NCBI GenBank assembly: GCA_030062745.1
Contig: CP099839.1
Location: 33,258,293 to 33,322,292 of the forward strand
Length of the DNA: 64,000 nt
From: Capitulum mitella
Lineage: Eukaryota > Arthropoda > Thecostraca > Pollicipedomorpha > Pollicipedidae
Direction of reading: 5' to 3'
The notes under the pieces are model-generated. The model was not told the origin of the DNA. It saw nothing but the letters and a program-made list of their open reading frames with translations, and did not search any database. Made by a program: the position numbers and the translations under genes. Each line of letters opens with the position of its first letter. The stretch's first letter is position 1. Positions 22,501-39,842 of this stretch are shown here, piece after piece.

Positions 22501-25500
22501 TCGTCCCGGCGATGCGCACACACCATAGGGTGACTGCCCATGGGCTGTTGGTTTGAGGTAGAGCCCAAAATTTGGATTTTGGATTCGAATATTCCGATGG
22601 GTGATCGAAGATTCGGATCTTTGTTCAGGGGGTTCTCCATGGAAAGTGGGAGGGATAAAGAGCTGAAAATTGGGACAGATTTTGGGATTCGAATACTCGG
22701 ATAGGTACATTCCAATATTCGGATCGAATTTTCGAGTCTTTCGAAGTTGCCGCCATTTCATCTCAAAAGGCACGACGGGAACGAGATGTAAAAGTCGGAC
22801 TGATTCACGATTGCGAAAACAGGTGGCAACTGGAGAGCTCTGACATAGAGCTGAGAACTGGGATAGGATTTTGGATTCGAATATTCGGAAAGGTACTTTC
22901 ATATATTCAGATCAAATGTTCCAATCTTTGGAAGCTGGGGCCATTTCATCCCTAACGGTACGACCGGAACACACGTAAAATTCGGACTGATTCACAATTT
23001 AGTAAACAAGTTATGGAACTTAAAAGTTTCGGCCAGTGCCAGGGATATAGGAACGCGACGAAAGAAGGGGGGGGGACCATTCGCCCAGGAAGGGCGCCAA
23101 TTTCCAAGGGACGCCGATCTCAAGCAGGCGCTCAATCTATTTAGAACACACTGGTAATTTATTTACATATTTACGGATATAAAGGGGCATCTATGAATGG
23201 GTTTTTATCTTTAGATACGCGGACTACGCGGACATGAGCGGTGCCGAGAAACCAGATAAGATGCGGCATTTTTTTGTGTTCCGTTGGCAATGTGACGTCC
23301 AGTTTCAAACTTTTGATGTCGTTTTTCCTGCTAGTTCGTTTCCTAAAACAGGTTCAAAACAACTGTATTACATCTTAATTTACCCATAAAGCCTGCTTTA
23401 TCTGGCCGCCAATGACAAAAGCAGTTATCCAGGGTAAAGGGAAAGAAGACCACAGCACACTGCTCAACGTTTGGTTTAGATGACTAATGAACGAGTCGTG
23501 TTCGTGGTTATCCATCAGGCTGTTGCTGTTTAATATGCCTGAAGTTCGTTACGCAGTGTGTGTCATGAGGACACACACGGAGAGTAGTGTGTGTGTCGTG
23601 GGGATAACAAGCGTACGCAGAACTGACAGCGGGATATTGAATCCTCCTCAATCCTCAATAGATTTGTCGGCGTTGCGTCCTATGTGCCAGCAGGTAACAG
23701 GACTCTGCCTCCGGGTGATTCTGACCTGTTCAATCCAGCCCCTAGAGAAATCATCGGCAGATCTTTACCAGCCAGTGCGGTTAGGTGGCCAGACCCAAAG
23801 ACGTGCATGAAGAGCAGGGCTCCCGGGCGAATGCGAAAAAGCCAAATGCTTTGTCTCGTGCCAACCTTAATTACTTATGTACAGTTGTAACATGTTTCAT
23901 CTGAAATATAGTAGTGCACAGGCTGCTACCATGTCTTTCGAGTCCTTACACCCATACCCAATCCGGGGGTATGGGTGGGGAGTCCGGGCTCCCCCCCAAT
24001 ACTCAGGGATTTTAACACCAGGCTTATGGCAACGACTGGAAAGAAACGGTGTGAAATCGTATTGGAGCCCTGAATAATTTTTAGAAATATCCAGCCATGG
24101 CTATGCTCTCTGTTGAGGCTCAAGGCCTTGAAGCGATAGGGGTAGGGTAATGGATCAAGGACATCCTCTAACCTAGTAAATGGGAGATGGCCCACAAATC
24201 AGGCTGTCGGCCCCCTCACCCCCTCCCCATCAGGTCCTTTCTTTCATTGTCTTAACTCTTGCTGGACGTGATGATCTTCATCTAAACGTCTGTCGAGAGG
24301 GGTGCTTGCCACCAGGCCCATTTGTCCTCTTATGATGATAAAACAGTGAGACAAGGACGAATGTGTAGACCGTGTGATTCGTAGCTATTACATGTACATT
24401 TCCTTTGGACATGTCAGGTCAAACTGCGACCTCTCAAGTTACTGGGAATTAGGAATGCTTCCTATTGCTTGCCCCACTCGTTATCGTCGTACGTTGTTCG
24501 CTTTTGGTCAGGGAAGCCAGGCTTTGAAGCGTCAAATCATTTTCGTCATTGAAATGAGAAACAACACGTACTTCTCAAACTATTCAGAGCCAGTTCGGGG
24601 TAATTTAATGTCAGTGACCTTATTTGAACTTAAGTAGGTCACTGCGTTTCAGAACACGAAGTATATTTCTAGTCGCATGTACGTTGATTCATACCTGAAA
24701 TAGTGACTCCATATCTCGTTACACTGTTAAAGAAAAACACAAAACGTAACTCTGATCGCCCTTCAGTATGACGTCAGAACTCAGAGGCCTGAAAAGACTT
24801 AGACAAAAGCTGTTGCAAAAAATGTGTAAAAGAGGTAAGTCCGATAACGCACATTTCAGTTCCCTGCCGGCCTGTGCCGTGTCAGCAGACGCCGGAAGCT
24901 AGAGACTGTTGTGTCAGCAGAGACAGGGAGACCGCCGTGTCGGCAGACGCCGACAGCTAGAGACTGTTGTGTCAGCAGAGACAGGGAGACCGCCGTGTCG
25001 GCAGACGCCGACAGTTAGGGACTGTTGCGTCAGCAGAGGCAGGGAGACCGCCGTGTCGGCAGACGCCGACAGCTAGGGACTGTTGTGTCAGCAGAGGCAG
25101 GGAGACTGCCGCGTCGGCACATGCCAGGACAGTTACAACAGTTGAAGGCTTCCATCATTTTCTTTCTAAAGATTACAGTTTTGTGCATTATTTGCAGCAG
25201 ACAAGGCAGAACTGCAAGTCTTCGCGATGACTCGCCACGAGCATGTCCTGCCCTGATCGCTAAAAAATCTACGGGATGTTGGCCGACTGACTCTTTAAGG
25301 AGGTCCATCTTGCGGTCTGTGCCGACCAGAAGATCCGTCCATGTTGTGATGACCGACTGGAATGTGTCCCAGACACGGGCGCGCTCCTGCAGCTGGCTCA
25401 GCTTGTCTTCCACCTGCGTCAGCGTGCGGGTAGAGCTGACCTGCAGCTGCTCGATGCGACTGATGTACTGCTGACCAAACTGCTCCATACGTGCTGCCGA

Positions 25501-31910: not shown

Positions 31911-32279
31911 GTGATAGAAGGGGTGATCGGCTGCTGTCATTGGCCGGCGCGTTATGAGCGCCGCCATCTTTGTGGTTGGCATGTGGGTTTATTTACCATC
32001 TCGGCCTATGGGAAAAACTCGTTTTTTGCGAGGTGATAATTCAATAGCTATTGGAAGGAAAATGTTCAGGTGCGTGTAATCGCGTTCATTCAACATTTTC
32101 TGCAAGGAATCCGCTTGGCTCGTATGGATCCAACCCGGTCCGGAAATAAAAGCTGGTGGCAAGTGAGCAAATATGGTCGTCACCCTCATTAGCACCTTGA
32201 CGTCTTAACACAGAATGCAACATTGCGTGGTGGAAAATGGCCATATGGAGATTGGTGTGCCCTTTTTGCTCCTCGCCTA

Positions 32280-34800
32280 GTCATGATTTGTATGCATTTT
32301 ACTGAAATAAAAAAGTGTTGGGAAATGGCCTATATTATAGCTCACTTAGTTGTGGTATGGTGAAAGAGTATGATACATTTAGGAAATATAGCAAGACTGA
32401 ATTATAGCAACAGTATACAGTAGGTAGATACAAATACAGGATGTTATTCTGGTAACTAAATGCAAAATTATGTTTCAATATGAAGTAAATTATAAAGCAA
32501 AACTGTAGTAATTTTATTTTGTAAGGGAGAGCTTGACTTTCAAAAGTTCAGCAAGAAATTATAGAAGTTGTGGTGCACTTGTTGGTTGACTGTAAATGTC
32601 CAAATATTTTGTATGTGCAGAGTTAGTAATGGTTTGTTTCAAAGTATATGAAACTGCATTGATGTGCACTAATGCATTTTAAGATAATTATGAGGTCAAT
32701 AGTTCTGAAGAATGTGTTGCTGAGTTATTGTTTTTTGGGGATGTTTATCTGATGCTCGGGGTACTAAAACAATAAATGATTGCCACTATGCAACAGGGGA
32801 GTGAAACAAGACTGGGCCAGGGGCAGCTGCCCATAACTTTTTGAAATTTTACATGGACCTTGAGACAGCTGACTAGAAAGATGACTCAAAAAGCTTCTTT
32901 GCCCCTTCCAAACATGGAGGAGTTCCTATACCTCTGTGTAAGCAATGTTTGAAATAAGCAAATTTCAAGCAAATGAGTAAAGGACCCTGAACCATGTTTG
33001 AGCCATCAATGATAGACAGCAGTTGCATAAACAATGTTTCTCATTAAGTTCTAATGGTTGAAAGCCCCCTTTGTGCAATCTATTGCACTCATCCAGTTGG
33101 AATGTATAATCATTTGATAACAACCAAAGCCAGTTTACTGTATAAATTTAGCAAAAGCAAGCCACATGCCAGTATGGGGAGTAAAGCTATGATATTGAGT
33201 ATGAATGAAGAAACCAGATGAGAACAAATAAAATGCTGATCTCAGAAAACATTTTCTCTGGGTGTTTCTGTTCAAGGCTTAATGTACAGAACAGTGTCAG
33301 AAGCAAAAAAGTCATGTCCATGTGAATGATAGTGTTGCACATGCATTGGTTCATATCTGTGCCAAATAAAGAAAACATGTTGCAAGTCTAGCCAATGATA
33401 GTAATACCAGTATATTTCACAGTTCCCAAAAGTGTAGCAGAATATAAATGTACTGGGTTCAATGGTATGAATGTGGCAGTCCAAACCAGTCATCCAGGCA
33501 AGAACAAGATATGAAATGAAGCTGGCAGTTGATGACTGACAGAATGCCTGGCAATTTAGCCTTTAATGCATGGAGAACCATTTTTGGACTTTGTAAGAAG
33601 GAATCAATGTGCTGGATTTGTGGCATGTGGCCATGTGCATAATCCAGGCAAAACTTACATGTGGATCTGGTTTTTTGTTTGCAAAGTGATTATGGCATTG
33701 CTGATGCTGGCTGCAGCACCTCCTGATAGAAGCCTAAATAATATACACAAATAACACAGATGTTGTTGCTGGAGATCCCAATCATGGGTGATAAATAACC
33801 ATGTCAGTATTACTTTGTCTGCAGATGTTGTCTTTCAGTATGAAATTGAAATATATCATTTTCATTCCAGACTGCTTATTCTTTCTGAATCAGACCATTA
33901 TTTGTAATAACCTGCAAAGTTTCATCCACACTGAGACAATTCAGTCAACACAATTTCCAAATGCAAAACCAAATAGAGAATTGTCTCATTTTGCTCAGGC
34001 ATGCAAGCAACACATACCATGACATCATTACTGTGACATGATGGTGGATTGACACATTCCAACTTGATGTATCAAATAAAAGTATTATTGCAACAGTTTT
34101 GAGATAAATATCCTGTGAATTAGAGTTCTGTTTCTCACAGAATACTGATCTCAAAATACCATTTCTATTTACAACAGACTTGCAATACAAGCAAAAAAGA
34201 CTGCTAACTTTTTGCTCATACTTGCAAAAGTGCACACAATCCTGAAACTTGTAAAGACACATAACATGCAGAATAGTGCATTGAACCATCAGTGACCCTT
34301 GCAGATCCAGTGGGTCATCCTGCACATGGCCAACCATTTGGTGCAAAATCTGGGATCAGCATGCCTTCCTGCTCCATTTGGGTAGATACTGCATGCATTT
34401 GTTTTTGAAACAAACCTTTGCCCATATGCTTACATTTTTGAAAACAGCAAAAACAGAGGCCAAATTCTGAAGAGAAGTGAGCATTGGGGGGTAGATTAGG
34501 CTACATGGATAGATTTAATTGCTAATAGATTTAAATGCTTCCTTAACACTTGGTCTGAACCTACCCATAAACAGTTCACTGAACAGAATACACTGTGAAG
34601 CCTGGGAAATTCAGTTCCTCACACAAGACAGACAAATTGCATGGTATAATGTTACTGGTACTTCGTGTTTGAGATAGATGCATTTTTTACATTTATTCAA
34701 GAGGATCAGTCACCTTTTTCTAACCATTTGCCAGATGAAAATACACACCTTTTCAAATCCATTTTTTATTTCATTGAAATACATATGCAACATAAGCTAG
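32280..34800. other. CpG-depleted block inside the left foldback arm
   Basis: By eye I count only two CG dinucleotides in about 2.5 kb (one near 32756, one near 34663), while flanking DNA of similar composition has them every few tens of bases. TG and CA are abundant. The block is bordered by an inverted GGTGGAAAATGG (32231) and CCATTTTCCACC (34842). ORFs are short and unrecognised. Confidence 0.85.
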
Positions 34801-35515
34801 GTGAACAGCAAAAACGTAGCCCTGTCTCCACAACACCATTTTCCACCATGTTATGCTACCGCCGTTATGTTAATAGTTCAAAATTCGTTCTTTTTCTCGC
34901 CGCTAGGACGAGTATGTAAAAATATCACATTGGCTAAGATGGCTCCACTCAAGAACCAATGGCATCACAACCAATCGTTCAATTCGGCAGATTCGAACGC
35001 CAGTCGATAGCGCCGAACGTTTCGTTTCTGTGATTTACACACTTTTACTTTTGACCCGCTGATAACGTCACAGGTCAGGTCAATCACGAAAAAAGGATCA
35101 CTTCCTCCAGAATTGCCGAATCACAATGGAAAGCAGATCAAAACTGAATTATGCGTGTTAATATGTTCCTGGCAACTTAATCTCTAGTTCTTCGTGCCAC
35201 CTGGCCCAAAGTCACACAAGGTCAAGGCCAAGTGCTGGGTCAAATGTGATCCCTGTTACAAGATGTCATGCGATACATCTTTCCTGGCCCATTTGACGCT
35301 GAGATTCTAAAAAAAGACATTGAAAGAGCCCAGGGCACAAAAAATATTGCAATGACCCCAGTTGTGTAGTTTAAACTCAGGGTACCACAGGAGCGCGCAT
35401 GTGACATGCATTTAACATTTCCAGATGACCGAACAAGTCAGTTTGTTTCATGTTGCATATTTCCAAGGAATGTTGCACAACATTGCAAAAGCCGATATCG
35501 GCACACCGATCAAAG

Positions 35516-37000
35516 TTTGCATTTTGGTGTGCGTTAGGTAAGTAGACGGTGCGGTGACTACGTGGGGATAATGTGGGTAATAACATTGCAATGTTAAACA
35601 TCACGATAAACAGAAAACGTCACTTCCGCACAATATGACACCAACATTGCTGATGTTTTTCCATCACATGTCCTGTTCCTCATAAATAATCCGTGCCAGC
35701 TGCTTTTCCATATTGGTGTACGATATGGTCAGCAGACAGTGCGGTTGCTATGTGAGGATCGCTTGGGTAATAGCATCGCGATATTAAAGATCACGATGAG
35801 GAAAAAAACTGCGCTCTGTAGAACGTCAGCAGTGATGATGTACGACCATCACGTTGCCTGTCCTTGATTAATGATCCATACAAGTACCGTTTGCATATTG
35901 GTGTGCGCTAGGTAAGAAGACGGTGTGTTAACTACGTGGGAGCCGTATGGGTAATAGCAAAGCAATGTTAAAGATCACATTAAAGAAAAAACTGTCCTTA
36001 CCCACTATAACGTCGGCAGTGCTGACGTTTGACCATCACATTGACTGCTCTTGATGAATAATTCGACCAGCAGCGTTTCAATGTTGGTATGTACCTTGTG
36101 CGGTTCCTATGTGGGGACCGTATGGGTAATACCATTGCATTGTCAAAGATCACCCTGAACAAAAAAACACTGTCTTTGCACGGTAAAACGCCAGCAATGA
36201 TGATGCACGGCCATTGTGTGTTCTTGATCGATAATCCGTAACAGCAGTGTTTACATATTGCTGTGCATCAGGTAAGCAGACGGTGCGAAGATCACGTTGA
36301 ACAAAAAGCGCAGCCTTTGTACGGTAGAACGTCATCAATGATGATGCACGGCCATTGCGTGTTCTTGATCGATAATCCGTAACAGCAGCGTTTCCATATT
36401 GCTGTGCATTAGGTAAGCAGACGGTGCAAAGATGACGTTGAACGAAAAGCGCAGCCTTTGCACAGCATAAGATCATCAATGATGTAAGACCATCACACTG
36501 CCTGTCGTTATCAATAATTCATTCCAGTAATGTTTGCATATTAGTGAGCGCTAGGTAAGTACACGGCGCGTTGACTACGGGGGGCCGTACAGGCAATGAC
36601 ATTCCAATGTTGAAGATCATGTTGGACAAAAAACAATGTTTTTTTCGCAGTATAACGTCAGCAGTGGTAATGTTTGTCTTTGCACAGTATAATGTCAGTA
36701 ATGGTGATGTACGACCATCATTTTGCCTGTTCTTAATCAGTAATTCGTACCAGTACGGGCTGCATATTGGTGTGTGATAGGTAAGGTGCGGTGACTACGT
36801 GGGGACTGTGTGGGTAATAGCATTGCAAGGTGAAAGATCACGCTGAAGAAAACCATTGTTTCTGCACAATATTACATCAGCAATGATGGTGCACGGCCAT
36901 CACATTGCCTGTTCTTCATAAACAATCCGTACCGGTACCGTTTGCTTATTGGTATACGCTAGGTAAGTAGACGGTGCGGTGGATCTCTCACATTAGAACG
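35516..37000. repeat. ~180-bp satellite, about nine units, direct orientation
   Basis: Each unit has TATTGGTGTGCGYTAGGTAAG, GACGGTGCGG, TACGTGGGGACCGTATGGGT, a TTAAAGATCACG segment, CAGCAATGATGATG and CCATCACATTGCCTG. Unit tags occur near 35536, 35726, 35908, 36085, 36266, 36411, 36550, 36776 and 36957; spacing varies from about 140 to 225 bp. Confidence 0.85.
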
Positions 37001-37620
37001 CTTAACCCACACGGTCCCAACGTAGCCATCAACGTAGCTCAACGTAGCCAACGTAGCCATCCCAACGTAGCCCACGTAGCACCGTCTAGTTACCAAGCGC
37101 ACACCAATAGGCAAACGGCACTGGTGTGGACTAATAGTTAAAAAAACGGGCAATGTGATAATCGACACCATTGCTGACGTTACGCTGTATAAAGAATGTG
37201 TTTTTTCTTCAACGTGATTTTCGCGCCGTCGACTTACCTAGCGCGCACCAATACGACAACGTTGCTGGTACGGATAATCGAACTTACAGTCAACATGATG
37301 TCGTACGGTACCATTGCTGACGTTATTTTGTGCAGACAGCGTTTTTTGTTCAACATGATCTTTAACATTGCAGTGGTATTACCCATACGGTCCCACGTAG
37401 TCACCGCACCGGCCATTACCTAGCACACACCAGTGTGCAAACGATGCTGGTACGGATCATTGATGAAGAAGAGGCAATGCGATGGTCGTCCATCATCACT
37501 GTCCATGTCATATTGCGCGGGAAAGACGTTTTTACTCCGGCGTAACCTTTCACATTGTAATGCTGTTATACCTACACGTTCCCAACGTGGCCACCGCACC
37601 GTCTACTTACCTAACGCACA
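37001..37620. repeat. Same ~180-bp satellite, about four units, inverted
   Basis: Tags in reverse orientation at about 37085, 37228, 37410 and 37601 (CCGTCTACTTACCTAACGCAC). The inversion point (37015-37085) is a run of short CAACGTAGC repeats. Confidence 0.85.
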
Positions 37621-38620
37621 CCAAAATGCAAACCTTGATCGGTGTGCCGATATCCGCTTTTGCAATGTTGTACAACATTCCTTGGAAATATGCAACATAA
37701 AACAAACTGACTTGTTCGGTCATCTAGAAATGTTAAATGCATGTCACATGCGTGCTCCTGTGGTACCCTGAGTTTGAAACTACACAACTGGGGCCATTGC
37801 AATGTTTTTTGTGCCCTGGGCAATGTCAATGTCAGTTTGTCTTTTTTTTTAGAATCTCCGCGTCAAATGGGCCAGGAAAGATGTATCGCATGATATCTTG
37901 TAACAGGGACCACATTTGACCCAGCACTTGGCCTTGACCTTGTGTGACTTTGGTCCAGGTGGCACGAAGAACTAGAAATTAAGCTGCCAGGAACATATTA
38001 ACACGCATAATTCAGTTTTGATCTGCTTTCCATTGTGATTCGGCAATTCTGGAGAAAGCGGTCCTTTTTTCGTGACTGACCTGACCTGTGACGTTATCAG
38101 CGGGTCAAAAGTAAAAAAGTGTGTAAATCACAGAAACGAAACGTTCGGTGCTATCGACCGGCGTTCGAATCAGCCGAATTGAACGATTGGTTGTGATGCC
38201 ATTGGTTCTTGAGTGGAGCCATCTTAGCCAATGTGATATTTTTACATACTCGTCCTAGCGCCGAGAAAAAGAACGAGTATTGGCCTGGTGGCGAAATCGA
38301 AAACTGCAATCGCGCGTTAACCTTATCCTCGACGCTGCACATGGTGTGCGATCGGTAAGGGTTACGGCGACCGGCGTTTATTTCGGAACCGGGTTGGATC
38401 CATATGAGCCACTCGGATTCCTTGTAGAAAAATGTTGAATGAACGCGGTAGCACGCACCTGTGCATTCTCCTTCCCATAGCCAATGAATTATCACCTCGC
38501 AAAAAACGAGCTTTTCCCGTACGCCGTAATGGTAAACAAACCCACCTGCCAACCACAAAGATGACGGCGCTCATACCGCGCTGCCCAATACCAGCCAATG
38601 GCAGTAGCCGATCTCCCCTT

Positions 38621-39842
38621 CTCTGTCTATGACTTGGATTGTGTACGTTTGACTACACTCCCAGCGCCTCACTCCCAGTGACGTCACTGCGGGGTCGTTG
38701 CTAGCAAAATGGGCTTTCCTATGGTCGATAACATTGGTGACACCCGGTGCCCCTTCCCAGCATTCCAGTAACACCTACCTACTACGTTGGTGTAAAAATG
38801 GAGTCACAGAGAAGCTATGTATATCTAAATGTAGCCCTAGGACCAAAATGTCGTAAATGTTGAGAGCGGTTTACTGCGAGGAACTGCCCTTTTTTAAGCC
38901 ATGCATTTTTACCTTGAAAACGGTCATTTTTACCCGACTGTTAACCTTCACATCAGCCGTAACCTTCAGTAGTTATGACAGTGGTTACCGTTCTGCGATC
39001 AGAATCAGAAGGTTCGAGCACCAAAAATGCCTCAAGGCTTTCAAGACTGTGGCGCATGCATTACTAATAGCCAAAACCCAGCCGGTCCTTCTCAGTTCCA
39101 ATTAACACCAGACAAATTAACACTTGACGACTGCCAGAGAACTAACTGGCCGGAACGTTGCGTAAATAATAATACGGAAGGCGAGGAATATGGTCCGAAA
39201 AATTCTCCATTCGTAATATTAACATCTCGTCTTAATCATTCCGCAAAACTCTAACCACAACCTCATTTAAACGACGCCACCCCTATGCTTCGATCCCCAC
39301 CGGTTCAAAAATGGCCTTGCATTGGACAGCAGATGGCTTCCTTGACCTTTCGGTGTGGTTTTTGGGTCAAAGATTTAACAAGAAAAACATTTTCATAGAA
39401 ACAAAGCCAAGTCCATTAGCACATTTCATTGGTGTCCAGTTCAGAAGACAAATGAAGATTAGATAGCACTGTGCTGCTGTATAATGCGTATGATGCAAAC
39501 CACATGAGCAGCGGAAATGGCGTAGCATTTCCAAACGAAGCTTGAAAAACGGCCAAATACCTCAGGTTTGAAATTTTGCAGGGCACCAGAGAATACAACT
39601 TCACTTCAGCTCTTGTTTGCTATTTCAATGGATGAAATAGACTGGATTAGCAGCTCTCGTTTTTGTCGATTTTTTGTAGCAGCAGTTTTCCTTTGAGCGC
39701 CAAAAGCGTGGCGCTTTTGCGGTATCACGGCACAGATGACAAATAAATATGTCTTGTTTGCTATGCCACACAATGAGGATGACATGGAAGTAATAGAAAC
39801 ATTTATCTTTGGCAAGGATGATATGGAACAGGAGAAGGAGCA
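38621..39842. repeat. Interspersed repeat, partly shared with 41131-41390
   Basis: AACACCTACCTWCTACG-type sequence at 38770 recurs at 41138, and GTGCTGCTRYATAATGC at 39468 recurs at 41312. The two are presumably one element family of unknown class. No gene recognised. Confidence 0.65.

Follow-up and report, generated by a model that had tools for sequence, protein, structure and literature searches.

The window analyzed here, a stretch of 64,000 nucleotides from the genome of Capitulum mitella, raises the question of why a 2.5-kb block should almost entirely lack CpG while lying in CpG-normal DNA. Positions 32280-34800 contain two CpG dinucleotides (at 32757 and 34664) where 83.7 are expected, in agreement with the preliminary description, which had counted about two; the sharp borders that it placed at about 32276 and 34810 also hold closely, with the bordering CpGs lying at 32226 and 32274 on the left and at 34815 on the right. 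The longest CpG-to-CpG gap of the window (32757-34664, 1907 bp) and the second longest (32274-32757, 483 bp) both fall inside the block, and the longest gap outside it is 257 bp. CpG rho is 0.02 in the block versus 0.86 in the remainder of the window, and CA/TG rho is 1.59 versus 1.11. An excess of CA/TG is the usual trace of deaminated methyl-CpG, and the block combines it with CpG depletion, as does a methylated, gene-body-like domain of an invertebrate. A search of the window against Rfam gave no match at gathering scores, and six reading frames elsewhere in the window match no Pfam family.

The block is one part of a larger element. Homology among copies found elsewhere in the genome is wider than the block, and because it stops at about 34882 and resumes over 38367-38623, the whole element spans 31914-38623 with a foldback inserted into it. 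The preliminary description placed the block inside the left arm of a foldback whose right arm lacks it; we reject this, since the block is flanked by both arms of a single element into which the foldback has itself inserted, next to the block, reversing the nesting. The parts are as follows.

31914..32226, plus strand: outer left terminal inverted repeat (TIR), or arm; CpG-normal (18 versus 17.5 expected), with homology to other copies beginning at 31914
32227..34814, plus strand: CpG-free core; 3 CpG versus 87.3 expected, longest stop-to-stop frame 136 amino acids
32228..32314, plus strand: inner, CpG-poor left TIR; pairs with 34762-34848 at 74% (consensus TIR c1-426 versus c2843-3279)
34762..34848, minus strand: inner right TIR; pairs with 32228-32314 (consensus TIR)
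34849..34882, minus strand: first stretch of the outer right arm, where CpG returns (34815, 34860, 34863)
34883..38366 (edges approximate), unstranded: nested foldback of about 3.4 kb at the core/right-arm junction; CpG-normal (185 versus 175.0 expected)
38367..38623, minus strand: outer right arm, continued beyond the foldback; CpG-normal (19 versus 16.5 expected)

The inverted arms of the foldback are 86-96% alike (86% for 34879-35923 versus 37226-38282), and the foldback (34883-38366) is built of sub-repeats, each some 140-190 bp long, that have diverged from one another. A coding core was rejected on frame length, as the core has no long open frame. Elsewhere in the window, a 58-bp unit forms a tandem array at 24876-25119 (4.2 copies, 94% matches).

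The block is repeated in its own genome. In a search of the 477-Mb assembly (16 contigs) that scored 40 of 170 candidates, at least 63 core pieces matched; besides the window's own, at least nine of these exceed 2.0 kb in length with an identity of 80-85%, as do at least two more with 73%. In the family consensus, the TIRs (c1-426 and c2843-3279) are identical at 387 of 438 positions, and on visual inspection the two repeats are almost the same over their outer ~265 bp and have clearly diverged over the inner ~160 bp. Target duplications of 8 bp flank most of the 14 two-ended copies: they match at 8/8 positions in five, 7/8 in four and 6/8 in one, one further copy matches at 8/8 once shifted by 3 bases, and the duplications are not clear-cut in three (the window copy, L012 and L053). 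The element tip occurs at 80 places with at most two mismatches, and its reversed control at none. Terminal inverted repeats, target-site duplication and dispersed copies, three features of class II elements, are thus all present, and by these features the element belongs to the non-autonomous TIR DNA transposons; it has ~430-bp TIRs, 8-bp target duplications and a non-coding core.

The superfamily is less sharply defined. Target duplications of 8 bp are a mark of hAT- or P-type DNA transposons, and non-autonomous members of these resemble our element in their duplications, TIRs, lack of coding capacity and dispersed copies. The TIRs of the hAT superfamily begin CAG.G, which the element termini CATAGATATAG... 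do not fit. The genome holds 54 matches to PF05699 (hAT transposase) and 12 to PF21787 (P-type), the latter more than 1 Mb from the nearest listed tip; a second P-type profile, PF12017, gave no match in the genome, and its control was equally silent, hence uninformative. Of the listed hAT- and P-like matches, one is closer than 10 kb to any listed tip, a weak hAT fragment (E 3.4e-4) on C7 at a distance of 2.2 kb; the second closest of the listed hAT matches is 20 kb away. Because both kinds of transposase are present and none is tied to the tips, the element may be of either hAT or P type. The element differs from named hAT- and P-type families in this lack of a transposase tied to its TIRs, in its termini CATAGATATAGAAGGGG, not matched to a named family, and in its TIR length of ~430 bp. 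The weak hAT-domain fragment on C7 (C7:28480594-28482819) lies 2.2 kb inside the family tip and may be what is left of a relative that carried a transposase; 501 bp of sequence from this place have no similarity to the element or to the other sequences compared.

CpG is unevenly distributed along the consensus, with 18 versus 18.7 expected and 15 versus 18.5 in the two arms and 2 versus 90.1 in the core. CpG is normal over the outermost ~300 bp at either end of the element, within the TIRs, and the core occupies ~2.6 kb. We profiled CpG density along the TIR in 15 copies with low and 15 with high ratios of new core CpGs (see below), four of 34 being excluded. In the 15 low-ratio copies the outer TIR has roughly 3-18 CpG per 100 bp in most 25-bp bins; inward of it the density is ~2 per 100 bp at c326-375 and then ~1.4 or less (mean 0.31), climbing again at c2976. 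Because the density drops within the TIR on each side, the border of the depletion lies inside the TIR at both ends. The arm-core-arm anatomy, the 8-bp duplications, the CpG-free consensus core and the CpG-normal outer arms can all be read directly from the aligned copies.

Depletion of this kind could be inherited from a founder or could have continued in the copies. We compared 34 rows, namely the window copy (L001), L009-L028 and L047-L059; L002-L008 are the same places as L009-L015 and were counted once. Some rows depend on one another: L018 and L019 appear to be fragments of a single interrupted copy, and L048 and L054, ~8 kb apart, have a common internal deletion. A tree of 19 cores (21 rows with L018 and L028 omitted) has the shape of a star: its terminal branches measure 5-15% and its internal branches at most 2.4%, except for 4.6% at L020/L022, and deviations from the consensus are therefore mostly private to single copies. 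CA-against-TG double differences between cores amount to 3.3% versus 0.9-2.5% for six other double transitions, with the rare CG-TA class at 4.3%; because the CA-against-TG class is raised only slightly, most CpGs are likely to have been lost already in the founder.

New CpGs are nonetheless scarce in the core. Across the 34 rows, CpG-creating changes in the core stand at 312/9474 versus 1532/23806 for comparable changes, a ratio of 0.51 (0.39-0.64 by bootstrap over rows), and the same ratio in the arms is 1.09 (0.85-1.36). Core ratios of individual rows range from 0 to 1.29 without forming two clean groups. With a cut at 0.45, which was set after the ratios were seen, 18 of the 34 rows, the window copy among them, have low ratios (pooled 0.19), and the other 16 have a pooled ratio of 0.85. 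The window copy itself has 4/380 CpG-creating changes in its core versus 42/955 comparable ones, and has lost one of 52 arm CpGs. In the sequences of many copies, then, new CpGs are persistently short in the core and not in the arms.

Existing arm CpGs behave much like other cytosines in the low-ratio rows, where 36/651 have been lost versus 122/2425 for other C-to-T changes (P 0.62); two of these rows, L016 and L022, have no left arm and have lost right-arm CpGs (9/11 and 7/12), and omitting them leaves 20/628. L023 has lost 9/55 arm CpGs. Loss is somewhat faster in the other 16 rows (52/537 versus 144/2093, P 0.03), and over all 34 it is 88/1188 versus 266/4518 (P 0.06). As a control, we examined 30 other repeat pairs within the window; in some of these, CpG change is at or below that of other C-to-T (for example, 8/151 versus 39/552), and in others it is up to ~2.7-fold higher (58373/63006, 10/24 versus 22/145; foldback sub-repeats, 38/117 versus 54/431), and ordinary repeats here are therefore not wholly exempt from faster CpG change. 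Measured flanks have CpG observed/expected values of at least 0.7 in 12 of the 18 low-ratio rows; L022 adjoins a CpG-free flank (0.07). Among the 34 rows, suppression has no clear association, by eye, with possession of both arms, and its correlation with age is not significant (Spearman 0.23, P 0.18). Suppressed rows make up 16 of the 24 with less than 0.12 divergence versus 2 of the 10 older ones (Fisher 0.023), a comparison in which the split and the 0.45 cut are both post hoc.

In the genome at large, CpG-normal sequence alternates with CpG-free stretches. In a fixed-position sample of 18 segments of 3 kb, overall CpG observed/expected is 1.01; of the 108 sampled 500-bp bins, six are at or below 0.09, one is at 0.38 and all others are at least 0.52. 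The preliminary description had held that its observation would be refuted by many other loci with the block's composition: this is partly borne out, by these six bins and by the repeat family, although the block is still sharply set off from its neighbors. One CpG-free stretch from this sample (L042) runs into an exon matching EZH2 in translation (E 2.5e-9). The genome contains both a fragment of DNMT1 (E 8.7e-33) and an ADD_DNMT3 domain (E 2.1e-9); the fragments surrounding the DNMT1-like exons are CpG-rich, and a CpG-poor stretch lies upstream of a DNMT2-like exon. These features point to an animal genome with mosaic CpG methylation. CpG-poor stretches also adjoin several copies, at L022:1-2290 (6 CpG versus 82.1 expected), L010:5449-6501 (2 versus 48.0), L011:1-1300 (5 versus 55.9) and L012:1-1100 (4 versus 43.2), and are possible gene bodies.

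Taken together, the feature is real and well delimited, and belongs to a transposon family whose CpG-free core is probably scarred by methylation. More specifically, the explanation that we favor, and hold to be reasonably probable, is that the block represents the core, free of coding sequence, of a non-autonomous TIR transposon family that is germline-methylated in its core only, within a mosaically methylated animal genome. Core CpGs would be methylated in the germ line and then deaminated to TpG and CpA, with the arms and most flanks exempt and the methylation border falling within the TIR, ~300 bp in from either end of the element. Depletion of the founder core would have preceded the spread of the family, and in many copies, or in their source lineages, the core would have remained methylated. 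Core methylation with deamination would account for the depletion, the CA/TG excess, the scarcity of new core CpGs and the ordinary arm CpGs of low-ratio copies. Because the pattern recurs in copies with mostly CpG-normal flanks, the methylated state appears to travel with the element. The heavy long-term methylation of one inserted element proposed at the outset thus comes close, but it is the interior of a whole family, with the ends spared, and not one insertion, that would be affected. We are less sure of the means; by analogy, the core may be handled like an invertebrate gene body, perhaps through transcription from unmethylated arms, and a role for such transcription in directing methylation to the core is our guess. 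Counting against core methylation are the 16 rows with little or no suppression and somewhat faster loss of arm CpGs, the arm losses in L016, L022 and L023, and inserts within the cores of L012 and L027 that are CpG-normal (65 CpG versus 82.1 expected, and 68 versus 69.8).

The main rival to continuing core methylation is inheritance alone, in which source lineages were methylated in the core, dispersed copies were unmethylated after insertion and simply inherited low CpG, and the ratio of each copy records how recently it inserted. The slightly raised CA-against-TG class, implying a founder already poor in CpG, agrees with this, as do the continuous spread of ratios, the CpG-normal inserts in two cores, and target duplications with few mismatches given the divergence of the copies. 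We nonetheless regard it as rather unlikely: in the star-like tree, long terminal branches lead to low-ratio copies too, so that many separate long-lived source lineages would be needed, and core-only methylation with spared arms would still be required in those lineages.

Capture is a considerably poorer explanation. Were the founder core a piece taken from a host gene or intron that was methylated and had lost its CpG, the sharp border would be the capture junction, and the genome does have CpG-free stretches of like composition, including that adjoining the EZH2-like exon. However, the CpG-poor zone takes in the inner TIR at both ends, and its border therefore differs from the TIR/core junction; among the matches listed (40 of 170 candidates scored), none was recognized on sight as a host gene, and capture alone leaves the shortage of new CpGs unexplained. 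We judge it improbable. Still less credible is loss of core CpG through selection or a mutational process other than methylation. A persisting shortage of CpG in the core is what either would produce, but the core is non-coding and its copies diverge freely. RIP-like hypermutation leaves a marked C-to-T excess outside CpG, which is absent here: C-to-T outside CpG is alike in core (1377/20106) and arms (266/4518), making the process CpG-specific. Finally, mis-assembly, contamination or a foreign CpG-poor segment, two of which the preliminary description had offered for the sharp borders and unlike composition, has a negligible chance and is refuted as a single-locus event, as the block is a repeat of the same genome and the same arm-core junctions occur on different contigs with differing flanks and target duplications.

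Returning to core methylation, a stronger version is that the sequence of the element itself encodes a portable, gene-like methylation cassette, with unmethylated borders built into the TIRs, that imposes core methylation on CpG-normal surroundings at any landing site, its power fading as copies decay. We put this forward tentatively, as a possibility that we think has the odds against it.

What directs CpG methylation to particular invertebrate sequences is, to our knowledge, not settled. Some thirty copies occupy different sites of one genome and have a common border within the TIRs; part of them continue to lack new CpG and part do not. They provide a natural test of the signals that guide methylation: since copies at differing sites have the same border, the contribution of the element's own sequence can be separated from that of its neighborhood. 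A practical consequence is that CpG observed/expected can flag a non-coding transposon as a gene body. Gene-body and transposon methylation are both already known, and the unusual part is the core-only, TIR-bounded pattern; this is a good natural experiment with known ingredients in an unusual arrangement, and not a new system. In Ciona, methylated and unmethylated domains are reported to form a mosaic that co-localizes with genes (PMC3827831), and our block resembles such gene-body methylation in its bounded CpG-depleted domain in CpG-normal DNA, its CA/TG excess and the presence of DNMT1 and a DNMT3-type domain. It differs in that the depleted domain is the non-coding core of a transposon, whose two ends are spared and whose flanks are mostly CpG-normal, and in being known from sequence alone. 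In cnidarians, transposons are reported to be targeted by methylation, the youngest most and with levels falling with age, and intronic transposons are methylated above other intron sequence (PMC8857917). The likeness is that of an invertebrate in which young elements are affected more, as in the divergence split given above; the difference is that the cnidarian targets are mainly intronic transposons as a class, whereas here it is one family with a border inside the TIR. Among the titles and abstract openings listed in our literature search, there is no case of a CpG-poor transposon interior or of spared TIRs.

Several places hold incomplete or altered copies. L064 is a single arm, L065 has an arm and the first 636 bp, and L066, a 4.7-kb tip-bounded place, is an old copy (74%) carrying inserts. 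What we take to be a YY1-like motif of the element arm has an exact match at half of the arm sites covered (22 of 44) and was given no weight. Adjoining the partial copy in L065, a 1.08-kb stretch (L065:1711-2786) is 96% self-complementary and forms a near-perfect palindrome.
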